Shown here piece after piece: positions 2,886-64,000 of a DNA stretch of 64,000 bases. The notes beneath the pieces were generated by a model. That model did no database searches and had not been told where the DNA came from. It saw only the letters and a program-made list of their open reading frames with translations. Within the stretch, counting starts at the first letter, position 1. Each line of letters begins with the position of its first letter. Location: assembly GCF_910592395.1 (NCBI RefSeq), contig NC_088325.1:11164109-11228108 (forward strand), given 5' to 3'. The DNA is from Lineus longissimus. Lineage: Eukaryota > Nemertea > Pilidiophora > Heteronemertea > Lineidae. A program made the translations under genes and the position numbers.

Positions 2886-4200
2886 ATCATTGTGTGTGTC
2901 GTGTTGGTGGCAGTAACTAGCAGTGATTACATCAGGTGAACGATTCTGCGGATAACTGAGGTGAAAGCTTCGGATGAGTTAGGAAATTTTCTCAATCTCA
3001 ATTTTTTGTCATTTGAGGAATATTATTAGCTTTGTTTGGAAAGTTTCAAGGTAGATATTCGTTTTATTTTATCAATTTGTCCTGACGGTAACAGGTGGTT
3101 GTGCAGTTTTCGACACCTCGAATTCTATGTCAAATAAAAGCGATTTTCGTTGGAGTAGGGTATATTTCTCAATTATTTGAAAAAATAACCTGGTGTTACT
3201 TGGACATTTTCAATTCTTAAGCATGGTATGGTATTACTTGATGGGTTCAGCTGAACGGTCTGCATTGCTGTCAAAATGTAACATTTGGGGGTGTTTATTC
3301 GGTTCCTACGTAAAAAGTCCCTTGGTAAAAATATTAGTATATGATTTTCGACCTTGGTTGACTTGGTATGCATGTTTTGAACTATCCTTACAAGATGCTT
3401 GTAAGATTTATGGGTTCAAGTTTGGCTAAATGTTACATGAAGGTAATTTTCTCACAATCGTTCATTTGGGGAATACGATCATGATTGGTTTTGCTTGGAG
3501 ATTTCTTGATTTGCAAGATCGGGTTTGTTGTCGATTATGGTAATGATACAGCTATGGTTGAAGCCTTGCTATCAACAAGAGACTGGCCAATTGATATTGA
3601 AACCATTGACCACTGTGACATGCATCAAGGGTGGTGACATTATGATTTCTATCAAATGAGAAGCGTTAAAAGTGCATGTACGTATGAACTATTATTGAAG
3701 TTCGTTATGCTGTGTGTCTGGAGTCAAAATGTGAAACCCTATCGGGTAAATACTTAGACGGTTTGGAGCTAGACAGCGATATGACTGATTTGTCATTAGA
3801 GGGAAATCATTGAATCATTGGCAAGTTCTCAAGTGGGGTTTCACTTATTGATCAGTTTTATAGCTGGTAATAGGTTTTCCAGGATTTCTGATACAGGAGT
3901 GGGGTACTGTAATGACTTTTGACTGAGAGATACGTTTCCAAAAATATTCTGCTTATTACTAATGAAGCATACTTTGACTTGAATGAGCCCGTTAGTTAGC
4001 ATTAAAGCATGACTAGTGATTAGCGACAAAAAATTACGACGTCCATGTGAGCACCATCCATGTGTGGTGGTTTCGGCCGAAATCGAATGTTATTTTTCCC
4101 TTGCCTCCCAAGTGAAAGAATTCAGAGATAGCCCAATACTCAGTCTATTGTCTTAAAACAAGGCCCCACTCGCACATAGGCCAAAAGTTTCATTGTTCTT
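2886..4200. other. intergenic, nothing recognised
   Basis: AT-rich, with only short non-conserved reading frames on either strand. No repeat pairing was noticed. Confidence 0.45.
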
Positions 4201-4298
4201 CTGTCTTATCAAGGGTTATCAGGGTAAATCTTGATAATATCGACCCCTCCGAAACAGCTTCATGGGAGTCTATAGGCCGACACCGGCAAGGGCAAATG
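4201..4298 (+). repeat. dispersed repeat B, copy 1
   Basis: About 98 bp that recurs, by eye at about 85% identity, at 52161-52260 on the opposite strand, and more diverged at 35577-35672. It starts with CTTATCAAGGGTTATCAGGG and ends with CGGCAAGGGCAAATG. No coding capacity, tRNA boxes or terminal repeats are visible. It is probably a short interspersed repeat or a piece of a longer element. Confidence 0.65.
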
Positions 4299-11169: not shown

Positions 11170-13963
11170 AACGATTTAGGCCAGATGCGACTCGATAAAA
11201 TACAATCATACAGGAACACAGACCCCCCCCCCCCTGTTACTGAAACACATAAGTTAAACAAACATACCTTATACGATCTACCACATGCTCTTGCCAACAA
11301 TGTCTGGAATTTTTGTCTGATTGTGACCAATTGAATTCATGTGAAAGCGTTTATTACTAATTGGTAAATGTCCGGATCTGGGAATAAATATTTTACGCCC
11401 GACCTTTTAAGAAAAATGTTTTTCATATATAACGAATTTAGTTTTCCCGACTTTCATTTTTGCTTTGATCAATACAGACATTTATCTTATAAATATTTTT
11501 CCTCAAAATAGCAAATATCAATAACTTTTTACATCGTACTAAATTAGAAAGTAGACATAACGTGGTTGTAATTGTATGAGTTATCGCTCATTAAAGTTCG
11601 GAAGGTTAAGCCCACCCGATATATTGATTTATAGTTCTGTGATAAGGCCTCTTTAGAAAATCGCCTATGCCCAAGCCGAGTCTTGAATTGTGTTGATGAT
11701 GCATTATTTATTAAGAGTTATACAAAGAGAAGTATCGATATTTTCTGATTAACAAATAAGCCAAGAGCGAAGGGTTATCGACAATGAGAGATATAAAAAA
11801 TGATATATAAGCTCGCCTTAAATATTTTGTAGATATCTAATATCTGTCATAACGTCGTGAAAGTCTAATGGAGAGAAATATAATTGCAGACATCGTATCA
11901 CTCACACCTAGGAATAATATTTTTTAGCAAGTTCGTTATATCTTCGCGTTTCACCCAAATCAAAAATGGTGCTATGAAAGCTTTTCAACATAATTTTCAA
12001 AAAAAAAGCATGCAGTGCATTTCCCGACTTGTGTTTCAACTTATAGTAGGAACGAACGATCTAACAAGCCCCGCATTTCCCGACTGAAGTTTCAAAAACA
12101 AGCCGCGCCGTTTATACTCTGTTTCCTCACGTATGTCGTCTTTGGACGCCATATTTAAGAGGCCCGAAGAGATGAATTATACCGCACATACCTAATATAA
12201 AGGTTAGGCTTAGTGGATTGGCCAGATGGCTCAGATCGTGGCGCAGGCCCATGACCAGAGACACCCACTACGTGCAGCCCACTACCATTGGTCGATGGGA
12301 TTTTAAATGAATTGAATGGGTTGTTTTACCAAACAATCGTGTTTGGGGTTTATTCATGGCGTGACCGAGGCGAAGCAAATGGACAATGCCAATTCATCAC
12401 GTGAGAAAAAAACCCGCCCTGCATGGGTCAACCCTATTGCGTACCCCCACCCAATGCATGGACACTACCCGTACACTGTTATTTTGTATTAGCGGTATAG
12501 GAAGACGGTTTACTTGAAGAAACAGAGTATTTCTGTCAGAGCAGGAACAAACGATGTAGCAAGCAATGAATACAATTGGCGTGGGTTTTGAAAACAACGT
12601 GTTAAGAATTGTTTTATCACGGATGACGTAATTTGTTAGCAATTTGTAATTCATTTTCCAACGCACTGGATTGAAGTTCTTTATTCCCGTTCCCTTTTGA
12701 TTCAATGGTTTATGCATAAAGTAAACTATAGCATCATGACTGAAGGCACTTGATATTCATTTATGAAAAGTCTCCCTAATAATAATGTGTGGCAGCTATT
12801 CTGTGCATTGCTTCCGCTTGGAAATCATCGCCTGAGGCAACGCTTCACAATGTCTTCATACACTAATTACGCCAATCGTAGGTTAAAAACGTGGCTGGTT
12901 GCTTTCCGAGCTATGCTCTGTCCAAAGGCAATCCACTCCGCGTTGCTGAAAGCCTTGCTTCGCCACAATAGAGTTGGAAGCTTCAATGCGAATAGTCTGT
13001 TCTCGTTGTTAGTTTTGACTTTTATTTCAATGTGCTATTTATAGAGTGACATTTGATGGTGTAACTTGGGGAAAAATTGTGATACTAAAGGCAACTAACG
13101 GAACCGAATATGGTCAATGGAGACTGTCAACGCGTTGAATGCATTATTATAAGTTTATGCCTTTAAAATACACACGTACAACGGAATACAGGGCATCCTT
13201 TTCCATTTGCGCCTAGGCGGAGACTGTTGTGTTCATTTTCCCAAGGCAACACAACGGCCCATTTTGACCTCAAATCCTCAATTCGTTGAAGGCTTATGCA
13301 CTCTGAGAGGTCTCCCCCTCCGTACACTTCACGCTCTAGGCTAAACTCTCATGAAGTGATATTCAAAAACAGATAGTTTTGCCGTTATTCGGAATCCACG
13401 TGCTTTAATTGCCTACTTCCCAGAATGACTAATGCCTCAAGCCATGCAATGATTATCCATTGGAAGCGTTATAATGGGAATACGAATCCATTGGATGCAT
13501 CAAGGCTATACCCTTCATTCATCAACCAGGGATGTAATCCTTTCTAAGTCAGATTTATTGACAATACCCCTGCTTCATTGATGAGGTATTCTCCTATTAG
13601 AAATGTTAGGACTAACGTATCGAGATTGAACGCATTTCCAGGTCGAAAATTCAGTTGAGTTCTTAGTTAAAATCGTATTCAGTTTCTATGCATGTACATG
13701 TACATGTACACTCCTAATAAGAATCCTGTGTGATTCTCAGTTTAAGAATATTTCCTACATCGAATAATTGTATATGTACACGAAAATAAATAAGACGTTA
13801 GGTAAGATTCTGTAGAATGTGATTTTTGTTGCTTTATTGCTGCTTTGTTGTTTTGCACCAACCCATAGACGGTTACGGATGCCTAACCAAAACCGATGAC
13901 GCCAAAACTAGGCAATGTGTAAGAGCGGTGAATTGTGGCCAAGGTGTTTTAGAATGTAACTTA
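11170..13963. other. intergenic, possible SINE trace
   Basis: Mostly featureless AT-rich DNA. Near 12222-12250 a stretch with TGGCTCAGATCGTGG resembles a tRNA box A, but I find no matching box B, so no SINE is called. ACATGTACATG-type runs occur near 13689-13710. Confidence 0.35.
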
Positions 13964-14341
13964 TGCAAGTATCAATTCGTGTCTTGTACCCCCCCCCCCC
14001 CTCCTCAAGGGTACGACACCTTATCACCCTATAACGACATCTTAAGGCTCAAGCATCACCCTTTTTTCACCAATGCTACTTTTTCTTTCGTCAAGACATC
14101 ACCATCAACAATATATCAGTTATCACCGTCATATAAAGTAACCGGACTAATTTTACTGGGTAAGGCTGAATGTTCGACAAGACATCGACACATTAGCATC
14201 CTTATTCTTTCCAGCTTCGCCAAATTTTCACTAAAGGAAAAATAAATGCTACTCAAGCATCGGCAAAGATTAGTGGTGATAGCTTAACTACCCCTGAGGA
14301 GGGGGGGCGGGGGGGGTACAAGAAACGAATTGATACTTGCA
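13964..14341. mobile_element. fold-back MITE with poly-C arms
   Basis: The left arm (13964-14012) starts TGCAAGTATCAATTCGT, runs through CTTGTA and a 13-C tract, and ends TCCTCAAGGGT. The right arm (14291-14341) is its reverse complement with a few changes: one substitution near the outer end, one G inside the C tract, and AGGGGT at the inner end. The interior has weaker inverted similarity. No open frame of its own is convincing, although a chance 139-codon frame spans it. No target duplication is obvious. This fits a non-autonomous inverted-repeat element. Confidence 0.75.
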
Positions 14342-14744
14342 TCAGACCGTACATCTTTTATGTAGGAATATACAGCACATCAATAACAGCAATAACATTA
14401 GCCCGCGTCCCGATCACAATATACCAAAGCCTGCAGCTGAGGCCAGGCTGACAACACAATACTTCGCCTGTTAACGGGCAGAGCATCGTAATCATGAAAG
14501 GTTCCGATGCTCAGATGATTAGAGTCATGGCTTCTGTTTGAAGAGGCCCTGCCTATAATCAGCTTCATTTCCGTTCTGTAATGCCAATCGCCGGTGCTGT
14601 CAGCTTAGACAAGGTCGGAGTCGCCTCACCTGTTGACTAGCGCTTTGAATGCGATGCTTGTCACGAAAATATATTATGCGTTTCAATATTTGCGGCTTTA
14701 TTTTCCATGTTCTCTTATTGAATATGGCGAAAATATCGCCTTCT
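14342..14744. other. spacer between MITEs
   Basis: No gene or repeat recognised. Confidence 0.4.
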
Positions 14745-19713: not shown

Positions 19714-19914
19714 CGTAATGCATGGGGCCAGATTTAGCACACATATACAACGATCAACGTTAGTTCGTGTGAGTATTTCGCGTAATGCATGGGGCCAGAT
19801 TTAGCACACATATACAACGATCAACGTTAGTTCGTGTGAGCATTTCGCGTAATGCATGGGGCCAGATTTAGCACACATATACAACGATCAACGTTAGTTT
19901 GTGTGAGTATTTCG
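19714..19914 (+). repeat. 67-bp tandem triplication
   Basis: Three head-to-tail 67-bp units start at 19714, 19781 and 19848, each beginning CGTAATGCATGGGGCCAGAT. Units 2 and 3 each differ from unit 1 at a single base, so the expansion is recent. There are no spacers, so it is not a CRISPR-like array. Confidence 0.97.
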
Positions 19915-20971
19915 CGAATTTATCGAGATTTCATTTTCAACGTCTGAAGTTAACAAATAATGTTACTGACAGCTCTTTGTTTCCGAAAAATCTGCTTAAT
20001 ACTTGAGAGACTCTCAAAAACCAATGTTCAGCTTGTTACCAAGAGAGAATGACCGTTGTTTATTATAACAGGTTAAAGCATTTAAACGCAACGAACAAGA
20101 ACTGAATGAGTATTAAGTAAATATATACTGAACGTTTCGGGGCAATGCCTTTATACTGAGGTGGTTTTCTTAAGCGCTGAATATTTGGAAGTTCACGTAG
20201 GGGAATGTCGGCTGAAGAACGTTGTTCCATGAATATATTGGCTTTTGCTCATAACGAGAAGGACAAATGAGAGTGGCTTCTGTATTGTGTTATCGTGGTG
20301 ATCTGTTGTATTCAAATGTCAACGCTTTTGAAAAGGCCTCCACTTTTAAAAAGCTACCAACAGCGCTTTACATTTTTTTTATATTTGAGGGTCCACGGTA
20401 TATCAAGCATGGTACTTTCCCGATGCTGATATACGAAATACACTCAATCATGTGAGCATTTTTTTTCCATTGATTATCATTCGAATAAGTTACCTTCGCC
20501 CAACCATAACCTTTCAGACCCAAGTTGTCATCACCAAAGAATAGTTGAGGATGGCACTTGGAGTTGAGGAATGCACCAGATCGAATGAACACGTACCTGT
20601 ACTTATAGCATACAAGAATATGCTATTATGATATATTCTTGCTCCATCTCCATCGCGTTCTATTAAGCAAATGATACCTAATACAGGGTATCATTTTCTT
20701 CTTTCCGAGTTCAGACTCTGGGTTTACTGCTTTGTCTATATACGATTGTTCAAACTCGATGTGCACTTCACTGAAATGTTTGGTCCTTAAAATACAAAGA
20801 GTAGCTTTTCCTCGTAAAATGTCATAGCTGGTATTCTGTAAAAAAAATGAATAGCTTTGATCAAGCAAAAGAATATTGAGAAAAGCAGAACTTTTGATAA
20901 AAAAGGAGTGGGCACAATTGATAATAATGTGGGTTTTTTTCTATTGAGTGTCCTTATGTAGGCTTGAGTAT
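19915..20971. other. left flank of the transposon
   Basis: AT-rich host sequence. A small hairpin, TAGCATA paired with TATGCTA, lies near 20605-20625. The last three bases before the element are TAT. Confidence 0.45.
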
Positions 20972-21025
20972 TAGTCCAGTCAAAATAAGGTTTGACCTCA
21001 CACTAATTGCAAGAGAAACGAAACC
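20972..21025 (+). repeat. left terminal inverted repeat
   Basis: 54 bp. The outer 10 bp and inner 31 bp match the right end. Between them this arm lacks about 10 bp relative to the right arm. Partial similarity resumes at 21058-21097, where a TCAAAAATCCCC...AGTGGAACA block mirrors the right end at 26759-26800. Confidence 0.93.
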
Positions 21026-21028
21026 AGT

Positions 21029-21034
21029 TTTATT
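21029..21034 (-). terminator. possible poly(A) signal of the transposase
   Basis: On the minus strand this reads AATAAA, about 450 bases past the stop codon and just inside the left terminal repeat. If used, the transcript would end within the element. Weak on its own. Confidence 0.35.
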
Positions 21035-21479
21035 CAGTAGTTTAATGCCTATATAAAAACATATCAAAAATCCCCAAAAAAATATTTAGTGGAACAGTGT
21101 TATTTTTAGGTCATCACGTTTTGCATGGTCAGGGGCCAGGCGCCCTATAGAGAACAACCAGATTTGGTATCTTATCAATTTTCTCTAAGCTGAACAGTTG
21201 CATGTGTACCTTTTTATGAAAGTCCTTCCCATTGGAAGTTGTTTTTACATGGTATCCATGCTTCTTGTGGTCAAACTAGGGGGTCCCCTACCCCAGGGCC
21301 ACCAATTTCACGCGGTTTTGGTCTTAAGTGGACGTAGCATGTATTGGCATAGTTGCAGACAGGTTAAGGGTTTCTAGTGTTTGGTAATGAGGCGGCCAAT
21401 TATGGGAAATCATCCTGTAGCATGATTCAATATAACAGTTAAGTAGGATCTTAATTCATTGCACAACATAATGCGTGCA

Positions 21480-24400
21480 TCAAAGGTCATCTTTGCCTGG
21501 TGTGTCTTCACCCATGTTCGCACAGATCCCTCTGCATTGCCCACAGGCTGGATTGCAAGGCAGGTGAAGTTGTCGACATCCACAATGTTTAGTTTCACAA
21601 CCCGATTTGCAGTTGCATCGCACAACCTTTTGTAGTTCTTTGGGGGCATAGTCCAAGTCGGAAGCAACCGGAACCAGAGCACCTCCGTGTGCCTTCCATC
21701 CCCATTCCTCTGCGTTGAGGTCGCAGCCCTTCCAAGCCTGTATTTGATGGTATACTCTCAAGGAATGGTACTTTGCAGCTGCTTGAGTTGGGGGTAGTGA
21801 CTTGGGGTGAATGACTTGTTTCCGTGTTGCCAACAGTTCAATATATTTCAGATGCCGCAGCTTGTCCAGGTTGTCATCTGGCTTTGCCTTGTACACGCAC
21901 AACAGAGCCTTTTCGCCTGCGGCAATGATGTCCTTTTTTGTAGCTCCATCTTTGTTAAACGTTTTGGCTGCCTTGAGAAAATTCTTGTTTTTTGCACACA
22001 AAGACAATGCGGTAGATTTACCATGTCCAAACAGCCTTGATGTTGTATCACAACCTAGAATTGCATGCAAGAACAGAATGTTCTGTGAAACATCATCGCC
22101 AAGGGCCCGCTGTGTCCTTTGAATATCAAGATAGCGGGCGGAAGAACCAGATTTTGGTGGAGCCATTAAGTAGACTTTCTTGTGTGACCCCGTCGTGTAC
22201 TTTATCAACAGCACAAGCAGATCAGTGTCACTGCCAACCAGTACAGTCTCACTCTTTCTGGCCACCTCAAGCGCAGTTTTGACTATCATTAGATCAGCGT
22301 CCCCTCTGGCATGAATGACTTCACAACCAGCCATTTCCATGTGTTTTCCGAGAAGATGGATGAAGCGTTGTTTATTCTCCTTGTTTGCCAAAAAGTCGTC
22401 CTTCTTCATGTTTAGAGGCATGTTCTCATTGAACTGGACATCTACAGTGTGTTTGGAACCTTTGCGTCTTGTGTGCGTCCCATCCTTGGTGGTTGGCCCA
22501 CTTTGGTAACCATCAAACACGACGACTGGTTTCCCGTACTGCTTCACAACATGAGCAATGTAGCTATGGCAGATAGCTTTGTAAGTGTTTCCAATTTCCC
22601 AGGGGACCTTGTGCAGGAGAGCACCTCCATCAAGTACATACTTGACTTTACCTGATTCAATCGTTTTCTGCTGTTCATCACTGATATCTCCGGCAAGGTC
22701 TCGTATGGCATTGGCAAGGCCAGGCTTATTTGCTTCGAGGAGGACATTTCTCTTTTCGAACAGAGCTGGCGGGTAAGCGCATAGTTCATATTGAAATGCC
22801 TCCTGAAGACTTTCCTTCTGTGTACCGACCATCACAAGCCTCTGAAAGAGTAGGAGAGGGTCAATGCTCAAATCTTCACCATCTATGGAAATTTTACACT
22901 TTGAATCCATTGTTACTGCCTGGTCTTTCTTCTTGAAAGTGTACTTCAGAACCTGTTTCCCTACCATTCCCTCAAGAACTTTGCCACCAACATCCTTCGA
23001 TTCCTCCACATTCACGTTTTCAGCTGCTGAAACTCCATTGACAATGTTTACGAGGTTTTGGGATGGTCCAAAGGGTGCCTTGTCCTCAATGAATGCAACT
23101 AGCTTATTGACATCATCTGCATCACGTTTTTTGCGCGCCAACGAGAGGTCTTTATGCTGCTCACTTGTGCTGTATGCAACCGATGTAAGGTTCTGCAGAG
23201 CCTGATTTACTTCAGCACAAACCGGACTTGATAAGGCCCAAACGATCCTCTGTGTTTCGGTCATTCCCCTTCCTCTTGTCAGTCCTCCGGTGGTCTTTAA
23301 ACTTCGCATAAGAACTTGTTCAATCACCAAATCCGGGGAAAGCCCTGCCCAATATCGATCTGATCTTCTGACGGCATGAAGTCCACGTAAGAAATGATCA
23401 TACACAACAGAATTTGTACTTTGCAGATTGCACATCTTTTGCAAATATATATGGACAGATTTGGTGTACAAACTGTGGCCTGCAGCGGCAAGGAATGGGA
23501 GCATGTCATGCATAGCCTCTAAGTGCAGAGGCCAGTTGCTCGTTCTCTCAGAAGTGATGAACTTTCTAACAATGAAAATCATCTTCATGTACATGAACCA
23601 TAACTGGCTTGTCTTTCCGTCTGGGTGGTTCAGCTTATCGTCAATCAGGTCCTTGATGTACGACATAGTTGCAGACGACTCAATGTCTTCGGGAGAAATC
23701 TCACCCGCCACTAACTGGTCGAACATCTCAGCAAGATCCTTCAACACAGGATCAAGGAACTCGGAATCCATTGGGACCGCACTGGATTGCTTTGAGTCAG
23801 ACGGATTATCAATACAGTGAGTTGCACAGTCGTCCTCGTCAGCATCCTCGTAACTCCCATCATCAACATCATCTTCGTGTTCTGCATCAGAGCTCTCTCC
23901 GTCCATGACATCTAATTGTTCACTAGGCTTGGGTGTAATACCAAGCAATTCAAACAACAGTATTTTGCTCAGAGCCGTATCAAGAAGGAAGTGCGCCCTT
24001 AGAGCTCTGGAGACAGCCTTTCCACTCATGATGTGGGTGACAGTGTTGGCCGTATAGACCCTCTCCAGCATTTCTCGCAGACCTGCACCCTGCATTAGGT
24101 GACCAACAGACCCCAGGAAGCTCATCAAAGTATGGAAGCCACCAAGCCGGAGCACAATGGCTTTGAGATGACTGTTATCAGGTTCATTTTCAATGATTGT
24201 GGTTGCTTTGAACCAGAGAGGTTGATCAAATGTTATGACCGGCTCAACACCATATTTGTGACTGTGCTCAAATACAAAGTGTAAGGTTGAGTTTATGCAC
24301 GTCAGATCAGATGGGTTCAAGTCAATCATGGGGAGGAGCATCACTGATGCTGGACCTGGGTGTTCGCCCTTTGTAATCAACTGCATGAAACCAGACCAAT

Positions 24401-25991
24401 TTGGTCTCTGAGGCCTAACAGCAAATGCCAACTCCCAAAGAAGGTCAACATTTGGAGAGTGTTCCCCATAACGTGGTAACTCGAGTCTTTCATAGTTCAG
24501 ATTCTTCATTCCATCCTTCGATGATGAGTAATATCTGAGATTTATCCGACCAATTTTGGATATCTCATCAGCTGATATAGACACGCGTTTTATGACACTT
24601 GCTGAATTCAGCTTCGGCGTGATGTCTGCAACTATGCCCATACCGTGAAAAGTGCCACTGCCATCCAAGGTTCGGACATTGTGGTCAACATTGTCTGCAG
24701 CATATTGCATGAAGTGATCTGGAGTAAACCCCCGTACATCTACATCTACTCCCTGCTGTACAGCTGCACAGCGATTATAACTTGCAACCTCTGAATATGA
24801 AACAGCAAAACCATGCTTATACAATGAATCATTCAGGAACTTTGATGCAAAGTGGGAGTGCATTTGAACTCCAAGACCTAGTTGCAATGGGGCAATCAAA
24901 ACTCTTGGTCGAGTAGCTTGCATGACTGCCTGACCAATGGATGCTACCTTTAGCCCCTTTTCTTTTCCTACAAACAGACGGTCAAGCAATGTTAACAGAG
25001 ACTGAGGCAAGAAAGCAGTGGAATCTTCCACTGTAGACATTTCTAGGGATGTTGGATAAATGCCTCTCAATTGCTCTACACTTTTGATGTCTGTCTTTAT
25101 CAGCTTGGCTGCTGCCTCAATAAGCCTAAGTTTTTCGCCCTCACTATTGGCTGCCTTAGCCTGATGGAAATATTCATCTAGAATGGAGGCAGCCTTTTGT
25201 CTGAATGTAACAACATTTTTCTTCCCATTTATTTCAGTGATAATGATTTTATCGCCAAAATGTTCATGGAGTTTGTCTTTCATATGAGTCAGTCCATAGG
25301 CCTCGCAGTCAGGATCATTCAGAATGTCAGTCATTTCAGTAATGAGATCATACACGGTCGTTTGTTCTTCATCGTGATCCTGTAGATCTTCTACAACCCT
25401 AAGAAAGGCTTCCTGTCTACGAACATCCTTTGGTCGTCCAGCTTTGAATCTCTTTGCCTCGCTACTATCTTCCAAAAAACGAACTGGGATCTGTTTGCCG
25501 GTGCGAAAGTTGCTATCGCAGGAAAGATGATAAACAATATCACCTGCGTGCAAATCACTCAATATAGCTTCTATTCTGGCCCTCACACTGTCAGCCCATG
25601 AATCACGTCGCGACATACACAATTCCAGTATTGTGTCCTTAATACCAAGAGTCCGAATTGGTATGAGGACAAATTCTTTTTTTTTCCCACCATACTTGTC
25701 ACCCGTTCCACAGAAGTAGCATTGTTCCTGGGGAAGAAAACTGTCTTCAGCCGACCGTAAACTTTGTCGCCGTTCTTCTGATGGGGACACATCCCCTTTA
25801 CGTTTTTTCCGCTTTGCATCTCGGAGGAAATCCCTTCTGCAGTCTGTATGGACCCTTTGGCCTGGCTTAACATCAACGGTTATACCTGAGAGCAGACAGG
25901 CTTTCTTGATTCCGTCACAACCCAGCTGTGTTAAAGTTGCGACAGAGTCATTCTCCTTCGGTACCTTTTCGCAGAAGCCACAAGTATCCAT
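21480..25991 (-). CDS. Academ-like transposase with FEN1/XPG nuclease
   Basis: One uninterrupted 1503-residue frame, probably nuclear. Two zinc-knuckle-like modules come first: C4-x2-C7...H48-x2-C51 and C91-x2-C94...H155-x2-C158. The middle, about 430-680, looks RNase-H-like, with candidate acidic residues D433/D436 in ADNVDHN, D589 in ITFDQP and E640/E643 in GAGLREMLE. An acidic linker covers about 697-722. Residues 1116-1330 match the FEN1/XPG PIN family in motif order: D1121 (VLDGG), D1160 (VVFDG, then RR), D1231/D1233 (GDADLMIV), D1255/D1257 (GSDTDLL) and D1315 (GCDTTSRLFGHGK). Residues 1459-1490 hold nine cysteines in a CXC/tesmin-like pattern. The predicted role is cutting and joining the element's ends; the DDE assignment is inferred. 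All expected nuclease acids are present. The start is the first ATG after a good splice acceptor. Confidence 0.9.
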   Translation of the reverse strand: MDTCGFCEKVPKENDSVATLTQLGCDGIKKACLLSGITVDVKPGQRVHTDCRRDFLRDAKRKKRKGDVSPSEERRQSLRSAEDSFLPQEQCYFCGTGDKYGGKKKEFVLIPIRTLGIKDTILELCMSRRDSWADSVRARIEAILSDLHAGDIVYHLSCDSNFRTGKQIPVRFLEDSSEAKRFKAGRPKDVRRQEAFLRVVEDLQDHDEEQTTVYDLITEMTDILNDPDCEAYGLTHMKDKLHEHFGDKIIITEINGKKNVVTFRQKAASILDEYFHQAKAANSEGEKLRLIEAAAKLIKTDIKSVEQLRGIYPTSLEMSTVEDSTAFLPQSLLTLLDRLFVGKEKGLKVASIGQAVMQATRPRVLIAPLQLGLGVQMHSHFASKFLNDSLYKHGFAVSYSEVASYNRCAAVQQGVDVDVRGFTPDHFMQYAADNVDHNVRTLDGSGTFHGMGIVADITPKLNSASVIKRVSISADEISKIGRINLRYYSSSKDGMKNLNYERLELPRYGEHSPNVDLLWELAFAVRPQRPNWSGFMQLITKGEHPGPASVMLLPMIDLNPSDLTCINSTLHFVFEHSHKYGVEPVITFDQPLWFKATTIIENEPDNSHLKAIVLRLGGFHTLMSFLGSVGHLMQGAGLREMLERVYTANTVTHIMSGKAVSRALRAHFLLDTALSKILLFELLGITPKPSEQLDVMDGESSDAEHEDDVDDGSYEDADEDDCATHCIDNPSDSKQSSAVPMDSEFLDPVLKDLAEMFDQLVAGEISPEDIESSATMSYIKDLIDDKLNHPDGKTSQLWFMYMKMIFIVRKFITSERTSNWPLHLEAMHDMLPFLAAAGHSLYTKSVHIYLQKMCNLQSTNSVVYDHFLRGLHAVRRSDRYWAGLSPDLVIEQVLMRSLKTTGGLTRGRGMTETQRIVWALSSPVCAEVNQALQNLTSVAYSTSEQHKDLSLARKKRDADDVNKLVAFIEDKAPFGPSQNLVNIVNGVSAAENVNVEESKDVGGKVLEGMVGKQVLKYTFKKKDQAVTMDSKCKISIDGEDLSIDPLLLFQRLVMVGTQKESLQEAFQYELCAYPPALFEKRNVLLEANKPGLANAIRDLAGDISDEQQKTIESGKVKYVLDGGALLHKVPWEIGNTYKAICHSYIAHVVKQYGKPVVVFDGYQSGPTTKDGTHTRRKGSKHTVDVQFNENMPLNMKKDDFLANKENKQRFIHLLGKHMEMAGCEVIHARGDADLMIVKTALEVARKSETVLVGSDTDLLVLLIKYTTGSHKKVYLMAPPKSGSSARYLDIQRTQRALGDDVSQNILFLHAILGCDTTSRLFGHGKSTALSLCAKNKNFLKAAKTFNKDGATKKDIIAAGEKALLCVYKAKPDDNLDKLRHLKYIELLATRKQVIHPKSLPPTQAAAKYHSLRVYHQIQAWKGCDLNAEEWGWKAHGGALVPVASDLDYAPKELQKVVRCNCKSGCETKHCGCRQLHLPCNPACGQCRGICANMGEDTPGKDDL

Positions 25992-25998
25992 GACTGTT

Positions 25999-26289
25999 GC
26001 TACAAGAAAAGGATAAGTGGGTTCAGAGCCGCAATTAAAATCACTGCATATCAGTCACACTCTGTCTGATTAAACAGGGTTGTGTAATTATTATTTAGGA
26101 AAAACCAAACAATGCCTGGCCATTGAGGACAGCATTTTACATGTGTGTATTAAAATTAATGACCGCTCCCTTTCTCATGAGCAGCTAAAACAAAAAAACA
26201 TGCACCTTACATAACTTTTAAAGACCTCTAGTAGGGCCTACTTTTAAGCATTCAGTTCTGCTTCCATTCACTTAAATCTATGACTTACC
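25999..26289 (-). other. leader intron of the transposase gene
   Basis: On the minus strand AG/GTAAGT places a donor after 26289. CTTTTCTTGTAG/C places the acceptor at 26001-26000, eight bases before the ATG. The intron is 26288-26000, 289 bp, in the 5' untranslated region. The pyrimidine tract and donor are both close to consensus. Transcript data could confirm it. Confidence 0.65.
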
Positions 26290-26326
26290 TAGTTCAATCA
26301 CACACCGTTCATTTCGCAAAAAGTCT

Positions 26327-26344
26327 ATCACCTGGCCAGGTGAT
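26327..26344. promoter_or_regulatory. 18-bp palindrome with paired E-boxes
   Basis: ATCACCTGGCCAGGTGAT is a perfect palindrome. It contains two inverted CACCTG/CAGGTG E-boxes separated by GC, a core bound by Snail/ZEB/E-protein factors in animals. It lies 8-25 bases downstream of the TATA box, where transcription should begin. It is a candidate operator for a host factor or for the transposase itself. Confidence 0.6.
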
Positions 26345-26351
26345 TGTATTG

Positions 26352-26357
26352 TTTATA
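26352..26357 (-). promoter_or_regulatory. TATA box of the transposase gene
   Basis: It reads TATAAA on the minus strand. A start about 30 bases downstream would fall near 26325, giving a short first exon of about 35-40 bases before the donor at 26289. The arrangement TATA, palindrome, exon, intron, ATG is coherent. Confidence 0.55.
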
Positions 26358-26830
26358 CACTGCTGCTGAGAACAAACACAAAAAAACTATTGATTAGATC
26401 AAGTGCTGCCATCTATTGAATTCTCCTGCAGGGAGTATTCATTGTTTTAGCCTGTGGAGTCCTACCAATTTGATTTCAGTGGTGTAGAATAGGTTTTGTT
26501 CTTTCTAATGGACGAGGATGTTAGTCGCGGGGTCCAAAATAAACGATGCGGGGGGGGGGGGTACCCCTAGTTAGGGCAGAAAGATGGGTTCTAGGTAGCT
26601 CCTGATGAGTTTATTTGAAAGATCAGCATAAAAAACATATAGTTGGACACCAAGTTGAATGGTGTAATATAAAATATCAACCTGAAATCTGTCTTTTTTG
26701 ATTTCTCATCTGCAAATTTCAAGTTCTGATAGCCACATATTCACGCTAAGAATTCACCATGTTCCACTACAAGGATTTTTTGGGATTTTTAATATGTGAT
26801 ACAGTAGACCCTAAGGAACAAAATACGGGT

Positions 26831-26894
26831 GGTTTCGTTTCTCTTGCAATTAGTGTGAGGTTCGACCCATATTTGGCTTAGATTGACTGGACTA
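26831..26894 (-). repeat. right terminal inverted repeat
   Basis: 64 bp, ending GACTGGACTA. Its inner 31 bp (26831-26861) are an exact complement of the left arm. It holds about 10 bp more than the left arm in the middle. A poly-G run at about 26551-26561 lies in the subterminal region. Confidence 0.93.
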
Positions 26895-27500
26895 TATGTC
26901 TTACGCTTGTTTTGCTATTGCTCTCGGGCGTACTAGGTTTGTAGGCGTATGGCGTTATTATCCTGATATGCCTTCATCTTAATGCCAAACGCAGCATTCA
27001 AAATAAAAACTTTTCTGTATCTGCGCTTATGTGGTCACGTGAGAATAGCCACGGTGATGATAATAATCTCAAATCAGCCACGTTGCAGAACCTCTTCACC
27101 GTAGCCAGTAGCAAGGAACGGACAGAGCATTCCATAATAGTGCTCCTTAGCACCATAGAAAAACAGTTTGCGCAGCGAATGATATATTTTTTTATCAGAA
27201 AGATAGCTTGCCACAGAGAAAAATAGAAGAAGATGTCACCCAATTACGCGAGAATGGGATCGCCGCTTTTTCCTACCTTGTCTGGTGACCACGTACAATA
27301 CATTGGCGGGTGGGCATAATACTGACATTTCTCAGTAGCACTCAGAGGAAGTGACGGTTTTTCAGATGACAATTTCCTCTACTATCTGCCCAATTACCTA
27401 CTGAAATATGCGGACGTAATAGTCTTGTTATGGGAGGGTTTTGGAGTTTAAAAAGAATTTCAGCGTTTTTCAGAGAAATTAAAATGCACTACGTGAGATA
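26895..27500. other. right flank of the transposon
   Basis: Begins with TAT, matching the left flank. Otherwise featureless. Confidence 0.45.
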
Positions 27501-34200: not shown

Positions 34201-34347
34201 TTCACAAACCAGCAAGCCGTGGGACGATGCGGACCTTCGCAGAGAATTCTGGAAGGAAAAACATAAAAAGGTCCTTTCATCGGGACTCGAACTCGAGACC
34301 TCTGGTTTTATTTACCAACACTCTTATCATCAAGGCCACTGGGCTAC
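34201..34347 (-). mobile_element. tRNA-derived SINE, minus copy
   Basis: On the minus strand a tRNA-like head carries a box-A-like AGTGGCCTTGATGATAAG (34323-34340) and a box B, CGAGTTCGAGTCCCG (34281-34295). It is followed by a body ending GCATCGTCCCACGGCTTGCTGGTTTGTGAA. The body matches the copy at 34659-34793 on the other strand. The head can form an anticodon-like stem (TTGGT/ACCAG), but its loop lacks the invariant U33. It is therefore a SINE head or tRNA relic, not a working tRNA. Confidence 0.7.
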
Positions 34348-34658
34348 TTGAAATGCCTGTCGTTTTATACGCCTTTATAGAATGTGCAAACATTTGTGTG
34401 TAATCTTTGTTCAATATATTTGAGCGGCTTCCAGTGGGCAACTGCAGGAAGAAAGTCATTTTTTCTTTGCTGTTCTTTATGTTATTGTATGCGGAGTCTA
34501 CGTTTTCTCTTAGCAATGTTCACATAAAATTGTGTCTTGGTGTCTTCTTCTATTACATGTACTTGACAAAATTTCTGGTTCATCTCTCAAAAATAAAGCA
34601 TAATCACCATTGTCATATAAGATATATTTGCTGGCTGCAGTTCACAAGAAAATCCCCC
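34348..34658. other. spacer between inverted SINE copies
   Basis: About 310 bp of AT-rich sequence between two oppositely oriented SINEs. No gene seen. Confidence 0.4.
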
Positions 34659-34793
34659 TAGCTCATACGATCAGAGCGTTCATATTCTGACCCAGAGTTC
34701 CCGGGTTCGAATCGCTGGCGAAGATTTTTATTTTTTTCTCTTCCATTATTCTCCGGGACTGTCCACATCGTCTTGTGGCTTGCTGGTTGACAA
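34659..34793 (+). mobile_element. tRNA-derived SINE, plus copy
   Basis: Box A-like TAGCTCATACGATCAGAGCG (34659-34678) and box B GGTTCGAATCG (34703-34713) lie at the spacing of an RNA polymerase III promoter. After a T-rich stretch comes a body with CTCCGGGACTGTCCACATCG and CTTGTGGCTTGCTGGTTGACAA, matching the minus copy at 34201-34347. The head cannot be folded into a credible functional tRNA. Confidence 0.7.
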
Positions 34794-45660: not shown

Positions 45661-46786
45661 TTTTTTGCTCCGAAGCCTGAAGTCTTGGTTGGATTTGGAG
45701 TTTGTTTTATATTGATCTTAGCTGAAGGAATTGATACCTATGCTCCACCAAAACCGCAAGGCTGGAGATAAAATGAAGACCAGGCGGAGACGAAGTTTTG
45801 GACAATATTGAAGCTCCACCCGACTTCAAAGAAGACCAATCATGCAGTTTGCGCTCCAGAGCAAAAAAGAACCAAGGCAATACCTTTATGAATGGACTAT
45901 AGTCTCTTTAATGCTCGAACTAGTCGTAAATTTCTTTTACCGTCATTTATTTGCATAAACAACCTTTTACGATCGTCCACGAAGCCTGCCCCATCTCGGA
46001 TAAATAGTTTATGAATATTTACGTTTTTATCATCTTCGAAGAGCAGTGGTGCGATTAACAAATCATCATAATTCTATTTTATTAGACCGATTGTGATCCA
46101 CAAATTAAATTAACGAACAGTCTTGAAAGAAGTGACGGAAGTGTACTAATAGCGGGTTACCATTCGGGAAGAAAACCGCAGTTATCCGGTCTATAATCCA
46201 TTAAATCTGGGGTTTTATGTGTTCTAACGCCGATAGTGATCCCAGAGTCATATAAATGAGCGTGTTTTGCGACTAATGAGGCTCGTCGCGAAGGCAATTT
46301 GACTGATATTCACGCCGTGGTGATTTCCAGTCTGTCCGAGTTGGAAGATAAAAATGCGAATGTTTTTCCTGGAGCTCATACATCACGATTCGTTGGGGAT
46401 TTGCCACGTCATCTCGATTTCCAAATAATAACGGCTTTTTTGGAACGAAACAGTTACTTAGTAATTGCCAGCCCTGATTAGGCTTCGAAACCAATATTCC
46501 TCACCGTCTTAATTATGTACTCAGCCGCCAAGGCCAAGTAAAACTCCATAAAATGAGGAAAGAGGGATAACAGTGAAAATCGGGGCCTATAAAAGCTATT
46601 GGCCTTTCCTGGGCGAGAATTTGAACAAACTTCTTCAGGAATCAAACCAAAATCTTGAAACCGGCAAAAAGCTCAGAAAACTTATTTTCGTCATCTGATA
46701 ATACGATTGATATGGCGATAGCAACCTCTATACCACTATGTCACCCGCTACTGCCCGTCATTGCCTGCCAGTCCTTCCCATGTGAG
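45661..46786. other. intergenic, nothing recognised
   Basis: No supportable exon. Confidence 0.35.
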
Positions 46787-47080
46787 CCAGTATCAAAAGG
46801 CCTGGAAGATGAGTTACGAGAAAATATCTCCTTTTCTTTCATGTTCGTTCAAACCTGTTGCTTCTCGGTAATACATACGCCACTATGCCCCGTGGACACC
46901 CATCACATCACGTCACGCAGTACCCAATAGCCAGTATCAGCCTGTAAAAGGCCTGGAAGATGAGTTACGAGAAAATATCTCCTTTTCTTTAAGGTTTGTT
47001 CAAACCTGTTGCCTCTCGGTAATACGTACGCCACCATGCCCCGCGGACACCCCTCACATCACGTCACGCAGTACCCAATA
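46787..47080 (+). repeat. 150-bp tandem duplication
   Basis: Unit 1 (46787-46930) and unit 2 (46931-47080) both start CCAGTATCA and end CACGCAGTACCCAATA. They share AAAGGCCTGGAAGATGAGTT and ACGAGAAAATATCTCCTTTT, with only scattered substitutions and a 6-bp length difference. A frame through unit 1 does not continue through unit 2. Confidence 0.95.
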
Positions 47081-50000
47081 AAATCAGTATCAGATAGTTG
47101 AGGAATCTCAAGAGTGGTAATGGGATCTCTCCTTTGAACCCTACACCTCCGCTAATTGGCGACCTGATACAAACAAGCTAAGCTACTTTCTCTTAACCAT
47201 CGTAAGTAAGTGCCTCCTCATGTGCTAATATCGGCATTGGTTTACCAGTAAGGGTGTTAGCTTCCTTTGGGTGCGTTGTCGGTCTTTGATATAGTTGCTT
47301 GAGTGATGTTTTGTGCTCAATTCCGTGGTTTCAACGCAATTGGAAACTTTTTATTCTTCATCATGGTGAATTTTGAATTTCACGAATCTAAATGAAGGAA
47401 TGTGCGGCACTAGTTACTTTTCTACATGCTCATTTTTCCAAAAAGTAAATATGAGCGTCGTCGTGATGTATACCACATATTAGATTCCCAGGCCATTGCC
47501 TATACGACCTCGGTAATGCAAGACTGCAGGCAGGAGCCAGAAAGGTCAGGTTAAGTTGCACGAGTTCGCAAAATACTGGGGCTCTCTTCTATACCAACAG
47601 TACAACGATACGAATCATGCTCACATGAGGAATACATTTGCCCCTGAATCAAAACCGACCCACCCCCCTTGGCATGTTTATCAGACACATGAAGACAACC
47701 ACTTTGACTCGAGCTGTTTTCTACAGAGTCCTTTCAGAGGCTGTCAATCCACCGACTGGTGTTGGCCTGTTGCAGGAGAGAGTGACTAACGATTGTAGTA
47801 AATCATAATCACCGATATAAAGATAAATCGCCATGAGAGGTTCCCATAATGGCACTATAATTTGTCTGTTGATAAACGCAATTTTGAACCATATATCTAA
47901 TGAGTGGCATATTGGGAATACAACACCCCTAATCTGATCCTGCAGTCGCTCCTGGCCCTTGACATTTATCTGATGGTTATGACATGAAAAAAAACGTAAA
48001 TAAATCTATTGCATCAGATAAAACCAGTTTCACAATAGTTATTTTCTCTCTTTTTTTCGCCTGAGGTTAGTAACAGACGCCATAGCCAACAACAGCAATG
48101 AGCGACGAAAGGTTAACATCATGGATGGAAAGGCGCAATCAAAATGAACATAAAATTCAACATCATCAATTTTTTCTTGTTTCTATTATAGTGATTTATA
48201 CTTGAGAGGATCCATCCAATGCGGTTGATTGCCAATCTCTTTTCAAGATAACTTATGAATAGTTGATATCATTGTGGAATAACCCGACAATTATATTTGC
48301 TATTTTCCCAACTGGTATTTCTACGTGTGTCACAATGGATATGACACTTTTGATTTCAGATATCACATAATACTTTTTTCAAATCTAGATCTCTTGCTGA
48401 CTACCCCTGCTGACCCTCTTAGTCCCGAGCTTGTTGTAGAATTATAATTTTTCCAACTCTATTTTGCAAAGGTGTACCCAAAAGAGCCTAGCGTCTCCAA
48501 ACCTCAAGCAAAATGTACCAAACTGGCGTCACTCAAAGCAGACTAGTCAAAGTACCATATGAGCTCCAGGGCATCCCATAAAGTCCCCGCAGGTCACATG
48601 GAAAACATCATGTAAAAATGATAACTTCGTGTACATGTTAAGAAGATCTTAACTTCAACACTGTTAACTCGAAAACTCCATGGGCATTGGTATTGATCAG
48701 GCAATTTTCCATAAGGACGCTCGTGACAGGTGTGTCTTCATTTGGCACGTACATGATTGTATACTTCTCGCGTATAGGCCTATTTTACAACGGGTAACAT
48801 GACTGGGTTTTTTGATGAAGTTCGATTTCGCGAGTTTTGCTCTAATTCATTGAGGATATTTGCGAAATCCGCAAAAATGTATAATTTCACAGTATTCACG
48901 TATTAAAGTAATTTGTTTTCTATTTTTTGCAGACATGATTTGAGATACAGTGGAGCCATTCCAATCAATTTTTACACGAGACACGGCAGGTGGGCGCTCC
49001 GTTCGTGTTTGTGCCAGTTGATTACAATTAAGAATTAATGCTCTCTGCTCATCCCTTGTATCGGCCAATTCTTCCTCGAGATTAGTATGTGCATTATTCA
49101 TAACAAATATACCTTTGTTTACATGTTTATCTTAGAATTGGATTGAATTGTTATCTGTACTGGGTGTTGAAAAAAAATGTTTCATGGCTCAATGTGTATA
49201 AATATGTTTGAACTTTGTACTCTTGATGATGCAGCATCAGTTGCAGCATCAGTTTGGATTCGGGTCTTCTATCAATATAATTGGCTCCATATCATCTGTC
49301 ACATTTATGATTCATTCCAAAAAGGGGGAGGCTATTAGGGAGAGGAGGTATTTTGTGAGTGTTGGGGGGGGGGGGGGGGAATAACTTTAAACCATATTTT
49401 CTGATGGATCAGGCCCTTAAGTCCATTCGAGAGATATTTTGATCCGAAATTTTCCGAATGTCGCCTGTCACCTATATTTGAATTAAACCGCGAGCTCAGT
49501 GCGTGCATAATAGTGCAAGCAGAAAAACACTTCATGTCATGTATGCACCCCCATCTTTCGCAATCGGATACACTTCAATCTGAGACTCGTGCAGTTAAAA
49601 AAATTGATTCAGATTTTGGTTACTCATTGGCCACTAATGGCACACGCCGGTTAGTCGTTAAGTTGATCTTCTCCATAAGCTTAACACGGTCACCAAGCTG
49701 TTTCGTGTAATATCAAAACCATTAATTACAATATTTAGTTCACTGGAATGTTACCAATTGGCGGCAGATGGCCAACGTCAGTTTATGACAGCTTGGGACG
49801 ATTTCAAAAGCTTAGCACAGGTCTTACTGAATATGGTCTTTTTGTCCATGTTCCGGACGCAAGCCGTCGCGGAAAAACATATGTTGCAGGCCAGGAAAAC
49901 AACTAATGTGATAACTCCCTGCACACATTATCCGCGCCACTCATTTCGGCTCTGTGCAATTTTGCGTGATCTCGACCGTCAAACTCTTTGCATTTTGTTC

Positions 50001-50672: not shown

Positions 50673-52057
50673 ATGACCAGGAGCATCCCGAAAGTAGTGT
50701 TGTACGTCATCTGCGTTGGATGCATAGCGTATCACATTGCTGCCATGATACACTATTACGCAACCATTGGAAAGGGTGAGTATTTTTTATGGCAAGGTCT
50801 CAAACAGTCTTTAAGTTTAAGGTTGCGCAAGTCACAGAAGAAGAAGATCATGATACACAAGGATCTGTACTTATACCCCAAACGTCATTGAACGTGTTAA
50901 ATGGTTTTGGGGAAGAAAATATACTTGATTTGTAAAGCTCTCACATCGAAATTGTGCTGGGGCACAAACTTTGATTTAAGAAAAATGGCCCAGTAGATAC
51001 CTCTGGAAAAAGGCCAACAGTTTGAAAACGGGCCTTGACAGTTCAGTTATCAGTAGTTTCAAACTCAGCCTTGGTAAGTCAACAAGCTAAGGCAGTTTGG
51101 CTTGCATGATTCAATGGTAATCTGTGAAGGATGTAAAGGTCGAAATATACGGTCGTTTCGTGTTAATGTCTCCGAGACACTTAACTTGAAAAGTTTGTTT
51201 TGTTTACGCAATATGATAAGGAATTTTCCTTTCCAGATAACATGGTAACAGCGCATATCCCGTCTGTCATTCTCAAGACCGGCAATGCCATAATCCCGCT
51301 GAGTATTCGCGCACATCTCGGCGCCAATGCCGCATGCGTCTGGCTTGCCTCCCTGGGACTCTTCGGTTGGGTAGTCTACACGTTTCTCACCATCATCCTG
51401 TGGAAGAGCCCCACGAACGGCTACCCGGTGTACACCCTGGAAGGCATTCAGCACGTAGCTGTCTATGTCTATATATTCCTTGGGGGGATATTCGGAGCAA
51501 CCCACTACATTCTACTGACCACTGGCCACTTCTTCTGGCTCAACCTGACCATGTTAGCACTCTCCGCCTTCTGCTACATGGTCTCTATATTCAAGGCCTC
51601 TCTCGACCATGAGAAGTTCCGGAACGACCTCATCCAAGTTGGTGTAACCAAGCAGTTGGGCCTTGTTAAGATGTTCGTCGTAAACGCCCTTCTTCCCGTA
51701 GCCGCCTGGATGCTGATCGAACTCTTCACGGGTGTCACGGAACTCGTCAAGTATGAATTATTTCAACAACAACAACGTCTGATGACCGCCATGTTGGTTA
51801 CGATCCTCGTTGTATTTATTCTGATCTTCGCCTTGGAATTGTTCTTCAGGGATTACGGATTCTACTTCTTGCTGCACTACGTAGTCATCTTCATGTACGC
51901 AATCGGTGTCATCGTAATGACCAGAGGGGTTCCAAAATCCAGCACCCTCTACATCCTTCCGTTAGTCTTGGTTGTTGTCTCGGTACTGCAGATATTCGTC
52001 AAGCTTACCCTCATCTTTACCGAGGCTCGAAAGACGAGAGATCACGTTCCACTATAA
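50673..52057 (+). CDS. eight-pass membrane protein, family unknown
   Basis: Two coding exons: 50673-50775 and 51237-52057, joined across a 461-bp intron with AAG-G/GTGAGT donor and TTTTCCTTTCCAG/AT acceptor. The split codon restores an aspartate, giving 307 residues. Predicted membrane segments are at about 7-29, 67-90, 105-127, 133-153, 178-199, 217-238, 243-263 and 271-295. A sequon sits at N137 and a short QQQQ run at 211-214. Exon 2 is visibly richer in G+C than its surroundings, as expected for selected coding DNA. A possible acceptor TTTTCACAG at 50656-50664 just before the ATG suggests an upstream non-coding exon. I do not recognise the family. It is not clearly AIG1/ADTRP-like or DRAM-like. 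The splice fit and hydropathy make a real gene very likely. Confidence 0.88.
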
Positions 52058-52160: not shown

Positions 52161-52260
52161 CATTTGCCCTTGCCGGTGTCGGCCTATCGACTCCCATGAA
52201 GGCTGTTTCGTTGGGGCCAATGTCATCTTGATTTGCCCTGATAACCCTTTGATAAGACAG
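52161..52260 (-). repeat. dispersed repeat B, copy 3
   Basis: Reverse-oriented copy of 4201-4298, about 85% identical by eye, starting about 100 bases after the orphan gene's stop codon. It is probably inside that gene's 3' untranslated region. Confidence 0.7.
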
Positions 52261-53047
52261 TGGAACCATAGGAATATAGGTCGATGTTCGAGCGGGCTAA
52301 TTACCTTGCTCCATTCAGTGATGCTAACTAGGATAGTTCACGAACTAACCCTATTCTTTCAAATAAGCTCATGTGAAAGTATTTTCTTGTTACTAGCGTC
52401 GCTATATCAGGTTCAGGAGCGTCTTTAAAATAATGGGTGATTAGATGATGGGTCATATAAGCCTTTTGAAATTACATGTATGGTATTTTCACGAAACACC
52501 AAAATCAGCGCCATGTAAACCTGCTCTTGTTGAAAAGTACGTTACAATACATAAATTTCAAGAGGAAAATTGTGGTTTTCTTTTTCATCCATCTTGTGAA
52601 ATCATAAACTCGAGGTTATTCACGTCCTGCCTAATTTTTTTTTCAAAACGGATTTTTTTTTAGGTCGGAATATGTTCATGGCCTGTTGCTAATCGAAGAG
52701 AAGAATTAAAACCCAATGCAGTATGAACAGTTTAAATGCTGTTTTTCAGTTATTTACATTATTTACGAGATCTTTGAAGATTCCTAGTTGAGAATTTGAG
52801 AATCGTAAAATTATATGCACTGAACTGAACTACATTTGTAAGGTCATTCCGAGTACAGCCGAGTACAGAGCTATTCTTAATTAGTGTTGCGCATATCTGA
52901 CCGATTCCCCGTAAGATTCAGACACTTGATTCAATCCAAATCGTGTCCATCCAAGTCAAAAATCCTGATCATGTTCTTATAAAGGATTCTTAGTCAGTTT
53001 CGTAAGATTTTTAGTTGTTGACCTAAGAACGTGTGAATGTTAGATAT
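52261..53047. other. downstream of the orphan gene
   Basis: AT-rich. An ATTAAA at about 52705 is a possible but weak poly(A) signal for the gene ending at 52057. Nothing else seen. Confidence 0.35.
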
Positions 53048-54859: not shown

Positions 54860-56364
54860 GCTCACCTCATGTGGAGGAAAGATGGATAAAGATCATGGTA
54901 TTGTGCAATGAAGTGTTAGGTTTGATGTAGGTCCAAGCAATTACAATTTCCCCAAAATGGCCAATTTACAGTACATTCGACCTCTGTGACCTTGAAAAGT
55001 AGGTCAAATCAAAGAAGACCCGGGTGACACATTGAATGGTTGTTAGAATTAGATGTACCTATGATATAAAATTGGTGCCAATCCGGCAAGTAATTACTAA
55101 GAATAATGGAATTTTGAAGAATTTAGGATTTGGCCCCCTCCCTGGAGGCCAAACGGCAAATCAGATCGCACCAAACTTCAGTACCTGAGATCACCTGACC
55201 AAGGGGTACATGTGTACTTAATTTGTGATCAATAGTCATTGCAGTTAAGAAACGTGCCATAGTTACGGCCTGACGGCCAATTTACGCCATTTTACCTCTG
55301 TGACCTTGACAAGAAGGTCAAATTAAAAACCTGTGTGACATATACTGTATGGCGGTTAGATATACCCATGATATCAAATTGGTGGCAATCGGGCAAGAAG
55401 TTAAGGAAAAATCACATTTTTAAGGTTTTTGGATTTTGCCCCCTGGTGGTCAAGTGGTGAATCATATTGGACCAAACTTCGGTCCCTGAGATCACCTGAC
55501 TAAGGGGTAAATGTGTACCAAATTTGGGATCAATAGTCATTGCAGTTTAGAAACGTGCCATCGTTACATCCTAACGACCAATTTACACCATTTGACCTCT
55601 GTGACCTTGAAAAGTAGGTCAAATCAAAAACCCGTATGATATGTGATGTATCCTTGCTAGGAGTACCTACCATAAAAATGTTATGAAAATCAGACCACTA
55701 TTAAACGAGCAATCAAACATTTTAACTTTGGACATTAAATTTGGCCCCCGGGTGGCCAAACTAATAATTTTTCAAGATGCCCGCCTGGCACCCATATTGG
55801 CTATCACATTTGATAAAAAATTAAGGATTTAGTAGAGAGTACATAGATATACATCCAGATCAAATTTGGTTGCAATCCGATCATTAGTTTCGGAGTAATA
55901 GTACTGTGTTTATTTTTCAAGATGGCTGCCTGGCGGCCATATTTGATGTCTGAACGGCCGAAATTTTAGGGGTGGAATAGAGAATCCCCAGATACATGTC
56001 CACACTGGTTTAAAACCTTCTAGCTAAAATAGATAGGAAACATGCTACTGTTCAGTGAATCAGCAAACTTTGACCTCTGTGACCTTGAAAAGGAGGTCAA
56101 ATCAAAAACCCGGAGGATATATGATGCACCTTTGCTAGAAGTACCTACCATATTTTTTTCAAAATTTCCCGACTACTATTAAGGGAGATATTGCATATTT
56201 TCACTTTTAACTTTTGGCCCCCTGGTGGCCAAACCATGAAACGAATCGGACCGAAACTTGGTCTCCAAGGTGTCATTACATAAGGGTACATGTGTACCAA
56301 GTTTCAACTCAATAGCTCAAACAGTTACGAAACGTGCCCTGCTAACGGACGACGGACGACGACG

Positions 56365-56983: not shown

Positions 56984-57345
56984 CTTCGTGATGTAATGGC
57001 TGGCTGATATAAGGGAGAGGGCCACGAGGCTTGGCCTGGGTGGAATTTCCAGACAACAAGCTGTCGGAGTGGCGCAGTGATAACATCGGCGCCTTTCGTG
57101 ATGTAATGGCCGGCTGATATAAGGGAGAGGGCCACGAGGCTTGGCTTCGGGTGGAATTTCCAGACAACAAGCTGTCGGAGTGGCGCATTGGTAACATCAG
57201 CGCATGTCACCTCTGAAGTCCCGGGTTCCATTCCCGGTCGATTCTGGTACGCTCATGCGATGGAGAGGGCGACTCTCTTCGACAGCGAAGGTTTCCTCCG
57301 GGGTCTCTGGTTTCCTCCTGCTTACATAATAATCGCCCAATATTG
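56984..57345 (+). mobile_element. dimeric tRNA-derived SINE
   Basis: Two tandem units of about 110 bp (from 56984 and 57094) share TTCGTGATGTAATGGC, GCTGATATAAGGGAGAGGGC and TTTCCAGACAACAAGCTGTC. The second continues into a tRNA-like head with box A TGGCGCATTGG (57181-57191) and box B GGTTCCATTCC (57224-57234). A GTTTCCTCCGGGG...GGTTTCCTCCTGC tail (to about 57322) resembles a motif seen in many SINE bodies. The first unit has only the box A part. The order suggests a partial tandem duplication of the 5' end. Confidence 0.65.
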
Positions 57346-63700: not shown

Positions 63701-64000
63701 GTAAGTTATTTTTCCATTATAACTATATGCGTATATATAAATATATTCCATTATATTTTTCCATTATATATTTAATTATCCATTTAGTTATATAAGTATA
63801 AGAAACAGACTGGTAGTGTCAAGTCGGATAATGTAACACTTGATGAATATGGAGCCACATGTACCAAGTATCCTGATCAAATGATGATGTGTTGTTGGAC
63901 TAGCCGCTGCTGTATATTTCATAGGAAATCCGTTAAACACATCGCCAACATCTTCAAACTTGGAAGCTCTGTCCTGTATAGGCGAGGATCCGGTTTACAC
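63701..64000 (+). other. first intron of the receptor, partial
   Basis: Starts with the consensus donor GTAAGT, followed by low-complexity TTCCATTATA repeats to about 63780. It contains the degraded exon copy described at 63807-63914. Confidence 0.8.
63807..63914 (+). repeat. degraded copy of the receptor exon
   Basis: It aligns in the same orientation with 63114-63215 of the exon: AGACTGGT..GTCAA, GGAT, ATGG(A/C)GCCA, AAGTA.CC.GATCAAATGATG, then GTTGGAC(T/C)AGCCGCTGCT. Identity is roughly 70-75% by eye with small indels. The copy lacks an open frame continuous with the exon. It is a tandem duplication remnant, or both derive from one repeat. Confidence 0.75.

Follow-up and report, generated by a model that had tools for sequence, protein, structure and literature searches.

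A probable AcademX-type DNA transposon of Lineus longissimus, with a predicted DDE core fused to a flap-type nuclease

Introduction

A 5923-bp segment of the Lineus longissimus genome (assembly GCF_910592395.1, contig NC_088325.1) carries one very long gene between inverted repeats. This raises the question of whether the segment is a complete transposon or a host gene, and of what the two unrelated nuclease folds in the gene product might do. The stretch of DNA analyzed here, called the window, comprises 64,000 nucleotides (positions 11,164,109 to 11,228,108 of the forward strand), and coordinates refer to it. In this study, the segment was found to be very probably a complete, autonomous DNA transposon of the AcademX type in an animal genome. 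The AcademX lineage is already known, and the element adds another member to it. The kind is known from sequence and has been little studied; in the literature searched, as far as the partial texts go, neither biochemical experiments on AcademX nor an explanation for its repair-type nuclease was found. An Academ transposon that is recently active and horizontally transferred was reportedly described by Zhang et al. in 2016, to judge by the title. The present locus provides a clean example.

Limits and terminal repeats of the element

The initial annotation held that the limits of the element are visible, with inverted repeats sharing a 10-bp terminus and an exact 31-bp block. The limits are upheld, and the shared terminus and exact block are real, but they measure 12 bp and 32 bp, respectively. 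The outermost 12 bp are identical at both ends (TAGTCCAGTCAA), and from the end to the 32-bp block the right repeat is about 10 bases longer than the left one. Beyond the block, the repeats are imperfect and gapped; their alignment scored 93, whereas the scores of 300 random pairs of 500-bp stretches, drawn from both sides of this window, averaged 21 and did not exceed 43. TAT directly abuts both ends, as had been claimed, and constitutes a putative 3-bp target duplication seen at one copy. Within the element, no pieces of the 32-bp block were found as subterminal repeats beyond the two blocks themselves (at most one mismatch). Comparison of the window with itself revealed no other inverted pair with a spacing of about 6 kb at E ≤ 1e-4. 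Elsewhere in the window, a second copy was found neither of the element by blastn, whose best match spans 18 bp (E 0.024), nor of the gene by tblastn at E ≤ 1.

Domains and relatives of the encoded protein

The single frame of 1503 codons noted initially is present on the minus strand, and in-frame stops precede its ATG. The positions of its domains are given in Table 1; residue conservation was counted over 76 sequences. The C-terminal part resembles the FEN1/Exo1/XPG nucleases in fold and in seven active-site acids, all of which are present and kept in 75 to 76 of the 76 sequences. It differs from these enzymes in its low identity (about 10–18% among the structural matches listed), in its fusion to a transposase core, and at D1231, an aspartate where Exo1 has E150. 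The profile match of this region to Exo1 is weak.

The central part is predicted to be an RNase H-like DDE transposase core. D433, D589 and E891 are invariant in all 76 sequences, as are G617 and H620. In the predicted structure, D433 lies on strand 427-437 and D589 directly after strand 585-588, the GxxH motif directly follows strand 613-616, and E891 is within helix 886-903. The end-points of VIA structural alignments (residue 932 to 569 in the P element, residue 930 to 609 in Hermes) put the position expected for the third acid only a few residues away from 891, the third catalytic acid of Hermes being E572. By structure prediction, the core is most like that of the P-element transposase, whose catalytic layout is given as D230, D303, D339xxH and E531 in a section of PMC8230255; the likeness includes the RNase H-like core, a predicted helical insertion before the catalytic glutamate, and the order of the catalytic residues. 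The [C/D]xxH motif found directly after beta-5 in the P superfamily is absent, G617xxH620 standing instead, and the protein adds a C-terminal flap nuclease and a CXC tail that the P-element transposase does not have. The target duplication also differs, being 8 bp for the P element and putatively 3 bp here.

The remaining modules lie on either side of these two domains. The N-terminal cysteine and histidine motifs are likely zinc-binding; their residues are kept in 66 to 76 of the 76 sequences, and the exceptions are gaps, save two substitutions at C158. The predicted winged helix is likely to bind DNA. The cysteines of the tail are kept in 73 to 75 of the 76 sequences, the remainder being gaps, and one relative (P0076) bears a UniRef name for the CXC domain.

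Table 1. Features of the element, with coordinates in the window
Feature	Position	Strand	Basis
Whole element, 5923 bp	20972..26894	.	inverted repeats flanking one full-length gene
TAT, left copy, putative 3-bp target duplication	20969..20971	.	sequence; weak alone
TAT, right copy, putative 3-bp target duplication	26895..26897	.	sequence; weak alone
Left terminal inverted repeat, 138 bp, outer 12 bp exact	20972..21109	+	gapped alignment
Right terminal inverted repeat, 149 bp, outer 12 bp exact	26746..26894	-	gapped alignment
Exact 32-bp inner block, left; candidate transposase-binding site	20995..21026	+	exact match
Exact 32-bp inner block, right; candidate transposase-binding site	26830..26861	-	exact match
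AATAAA, candidate polyadenylation signal, inside left inverted repeat	21029..21034	-	sequence
Transposase gene, 1503 amino acids, single open frame	21480..25991	-	ATG to stop
Residues 1-165, two CxxC...HxxC motifs (C4 C7 H48 C51; C91 C94 H155 C158)	25497..25991	-	conservation
Residues 190-266, winged helix-turn-helix	25194..25424	-	predicted structure
Residues 341-932, RNase H-like DDE transposase core with helical insertion; D433, D589, G617xxH620, E891	23196..24971	-	predicted structure and invariant residues
Residues 1088-1427, FEN1/Exo1/XPG-type nuclease; D1121 D1160 D1231 D1233 D1255 D1257 D1315	21711..22730	-	Foldseek, VIA, profile
Residues 1457-1492, nine-cysteine CXC (tesmin/TSO1-like) tail	21516..21623	-	conservation and UniRef name

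A search limited to proteins of 0.55 to 1.75 times the query length revealed 637 relatives at E ≤ 1e-3 (7991 candidates scored). The best shows 72% identity over 100% of the protein, and coverage reaches 89% or more in 111 of the 120 relatives listed. Source names are borne by 12 of these 120; they denote hypothetical proteins, exonucleases and CXC proteins, and none names a transposon. Animals among the named relatives include the corals Porites lobata and P. evermanni and the molluscs Littorina saxatilis, Mytilus edulis and Mercenaria mercenaria. Four of the 120 represent clusters of 51 to 82 member sequences. The family thus comprises at least 637 related proteins, and its members named as hypothetical, exonuclease or CXC proteins are likely transposon-derived.

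Searches of other collections gave no such relatives. In the viral collection, 44 and 34 pattern matches were obtained, none upheld by protein alignment, and the exact 25-bp core of the 32-bp block had no match; a viral structure library gave no match to the model of residues 1-1100 at E ≤ 0.001. In the prokaryote genome collection, none of 9 and 14 pattern matches was confirmed. A phmmer search of the PDB returned only an unrelated protease (E 0.74), and NCBIfam only PCNA_Inhib (E 0.6), which was disregarded. A bacterial toxin profile in 1 of 33 relatives (E 0.0071) was regarded as chance. The DUF6589 profile (Pfam PF20231) had no match in the 1503-residue protein and is weak in relatives (1 of 11 in one set, 5 of 33 in another); in relative P0032 it covers residues 629-925 with 26.4 bits, against a curated cut-off of 27. 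DUF6589 was rejected as a name for the family, the term not being found in the literature searched. The weak matches in a few relatives suggest that DUF6589 may correspond to the Academ transposase core.

Assignment to AcademX

The initial annotation had placed the element in the XPG branch of Academ from its domain layout and short duplication. This placement is supported by the features described for Academ and AcademX: an XPG/FEN-type nuclease, a DDE/D core (by prediction), terminal inverted repeats, and no helicase. No helicase was found in the 1503-residue protein, as judged from the domain layout and from Pfam, which gave no family at all; the latter is weak alone, because the nuclease likewise escapes Pfam. 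Between the assigned domains, the longest gap (residues 933-1087) is largely helical and lacks the length for a two-domain helicase. The presence of the nuclease, the lack of room for a helicase, and the length of 5923 bp fit AcademX. A part of PMC9587614 counts Academ among the superfamilies with a DDD/E transposase. The length is also close to the mean of 5565 bp for 100 curated bivalve Academ consensus elements, as stated in an extract of PMC10294476. A passage in PMC10045372 gives duplications of 3–4 bp for AcademX and 9–10 bp for AcademH, and ties them to the encoded nuclease and helicase, respectively. AcademH belongs to the same superfamily according to the literature; unlike the present element, in which no helicase was detected, it encodes one and makes the longer duplications. 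The likeness to AcademX (XPG-type nuclease, terminal inverted repeats, a short putative duplication of 3 bp, about 5.9 kb, and animal relatives) lies in described features rather than in a named Academ reference sequence, and the duplication comes from one copy.

Possible roles of the two nucleases

The element is presumably mobile, with candidate binding sites at its ends, and cut-and-paste transposition by the DDE core is supported at the level of prediction. A single protein would bind the ends of about 140 bp, likely through the winged helix and the cysteine/histidine modules on the shared 32-bp block, and would pair both element ends. The RNase H-like core (D433, D589, E891) would then nick the DNA and join the 3' ends to a new target, and a 3-bp stagger in the target cut would leave TAT on both sides. 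The flap-type nuclease would cut a second DNA structure left uncut by the DDE core. This substrate is most likely either the 5' (non-transferred) strand at the element's termini or an intermediate that carries a branch or flap. We consider the chances of such a division of labor between the two nucleases to be about even. A more specific proposal is put forward tentatively: the P-element-like core may cleave and join the 3' strand, and the fused nuclease may free the 5' strand or flap and set the 3-bp stagger. Split cleavage of this kind, if it occurs, would be new for eukaryotic cut-and-paste transposons and would be functionally similar to TnsA acting with TnsB. In this Tn7 pair, a second, unrelated nuclease works alongside a DDE transposase. 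The Tn7 nuclease has another fold, and the two activities reside in separate proteins; the comparison is therefore an analogy, and no homology is claimed. With its intact ends and open gene, the element is a reagent for asking whether a single transposition reaction makes use of both unrelated active sites.

A different role for the nuclease is possible, if somewhat doubtful. The DDE core may carry out all cutting and joining, with the flap nuclease as an accessory that acts in gap repair, flap removal, or the gain of copies after transposition. Such a repair role is nearly as likely as one in which the nuclease handles the unjoined strand or flap. The P-element and hAT transposases handle both strands without a second nuclease. 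The Kolobok superfamily, as a section of PMC9587614 relates, acquires varied accessory nucleases and helicases. However, the nuclease here is fused to the core in a single polypeptide, and 75 to 76 of 76 sequences retain its acids, which suggests a constant role for it. In addition, AcademH has a helicase in its place and the 9–10 bp duplications noted above (PMC10045372, in part), a hint that the form of the cut is influenced by the fused enzyme.

It is very unlikely that the gene is a domesticated host gene in which old transposon ends were retained by chance. Three observations do favor that reading. One copy was seen in the 64-kb window, its left and right ends have diverged from each other, and the 12 named relatives among the 120 listed are annotated as ordinary proteins. 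As for the transposon reading, the Foldseek match of the DDE core is not significant by itself, the core being assigned by prediction. In a control set of 579 perfect 10-bp inverted pairs lying 3–8 kb apart in the same window, a 3-bp flank duplication occurred in 18, which weakens TAT as evidence. The short ends and TAT were thus rejected as proof by themselves, and the boundaries are believable because of the 32-bp block and the repeats extending over about 140 bp. In contrast to what domestication usually brings, namely loss of the ends, both ends and a complete open gene survive together here, and neither nuclease has lost its candidate catalytic residues. The clusters of 51 to 82 members are repeat-like, although they may reflect many samples. 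Another reading, in which the flap nuclease acts as the actual transposase and the RNase H-like part serves a structural purpose only, is highly improbable: the nuclease has by far the stronger structural match, but D433, D589 and E891 are invariant in all 76 sequences at the positions expected for catalysis, and strand transfer by flap-type enzymes is not known.

Other features of the window

Within the element, a 21-bp inverted match (95%) links 21341-21361, in the 3' non-coding part, with 24623-24643, which codes for GMGIVAD and adjoins an invariant motif; its possible explanations are filler DNA, an antisense source, and chance. Outside the element, an exon-like frame at 63095-63772 (+) belongs to the rhodopsin-family receptors (7tm_1, E 1.9e-11) and by eye resembles a dopamine D2-type amine receptor, in keeping with an animal as host. 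A frame of 285 amino acids at 51200-52057 (+) appears strongly hydrophobic by eye; it matched no Pfam family and had no homolog at E ≤ 0.001 among 1742 candidates.

The 418-bp segment 16666-17083 has inverted arms of 112 bp at 96% identity, with GCT on both sides, and is likely a small non-autonomous DNA transposon, with ends unlike those of the XPG-nuclease element. Two further inverted-repeat pairs, at 34207-34788 (arms of about 98 bp, 75%) and 13960-14345 (arms of 55 bp, 89%), are possible small transposons; a clear flank duplication was not seen at either. Local repeats occur at 54959-56338, 56985-57203, 46785-47093 and 19714-19916. Tandem arrays are found at 46795-47080 (151-bp unit) and at 19714-19916 (67-bp unit), the latter ending about 1 kb to the left of the element. 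A dispersed inverted repeat, 4165-4298 versus 52161-52296 (82% identity over 136 bp), probably represents an unrelated repeat family.
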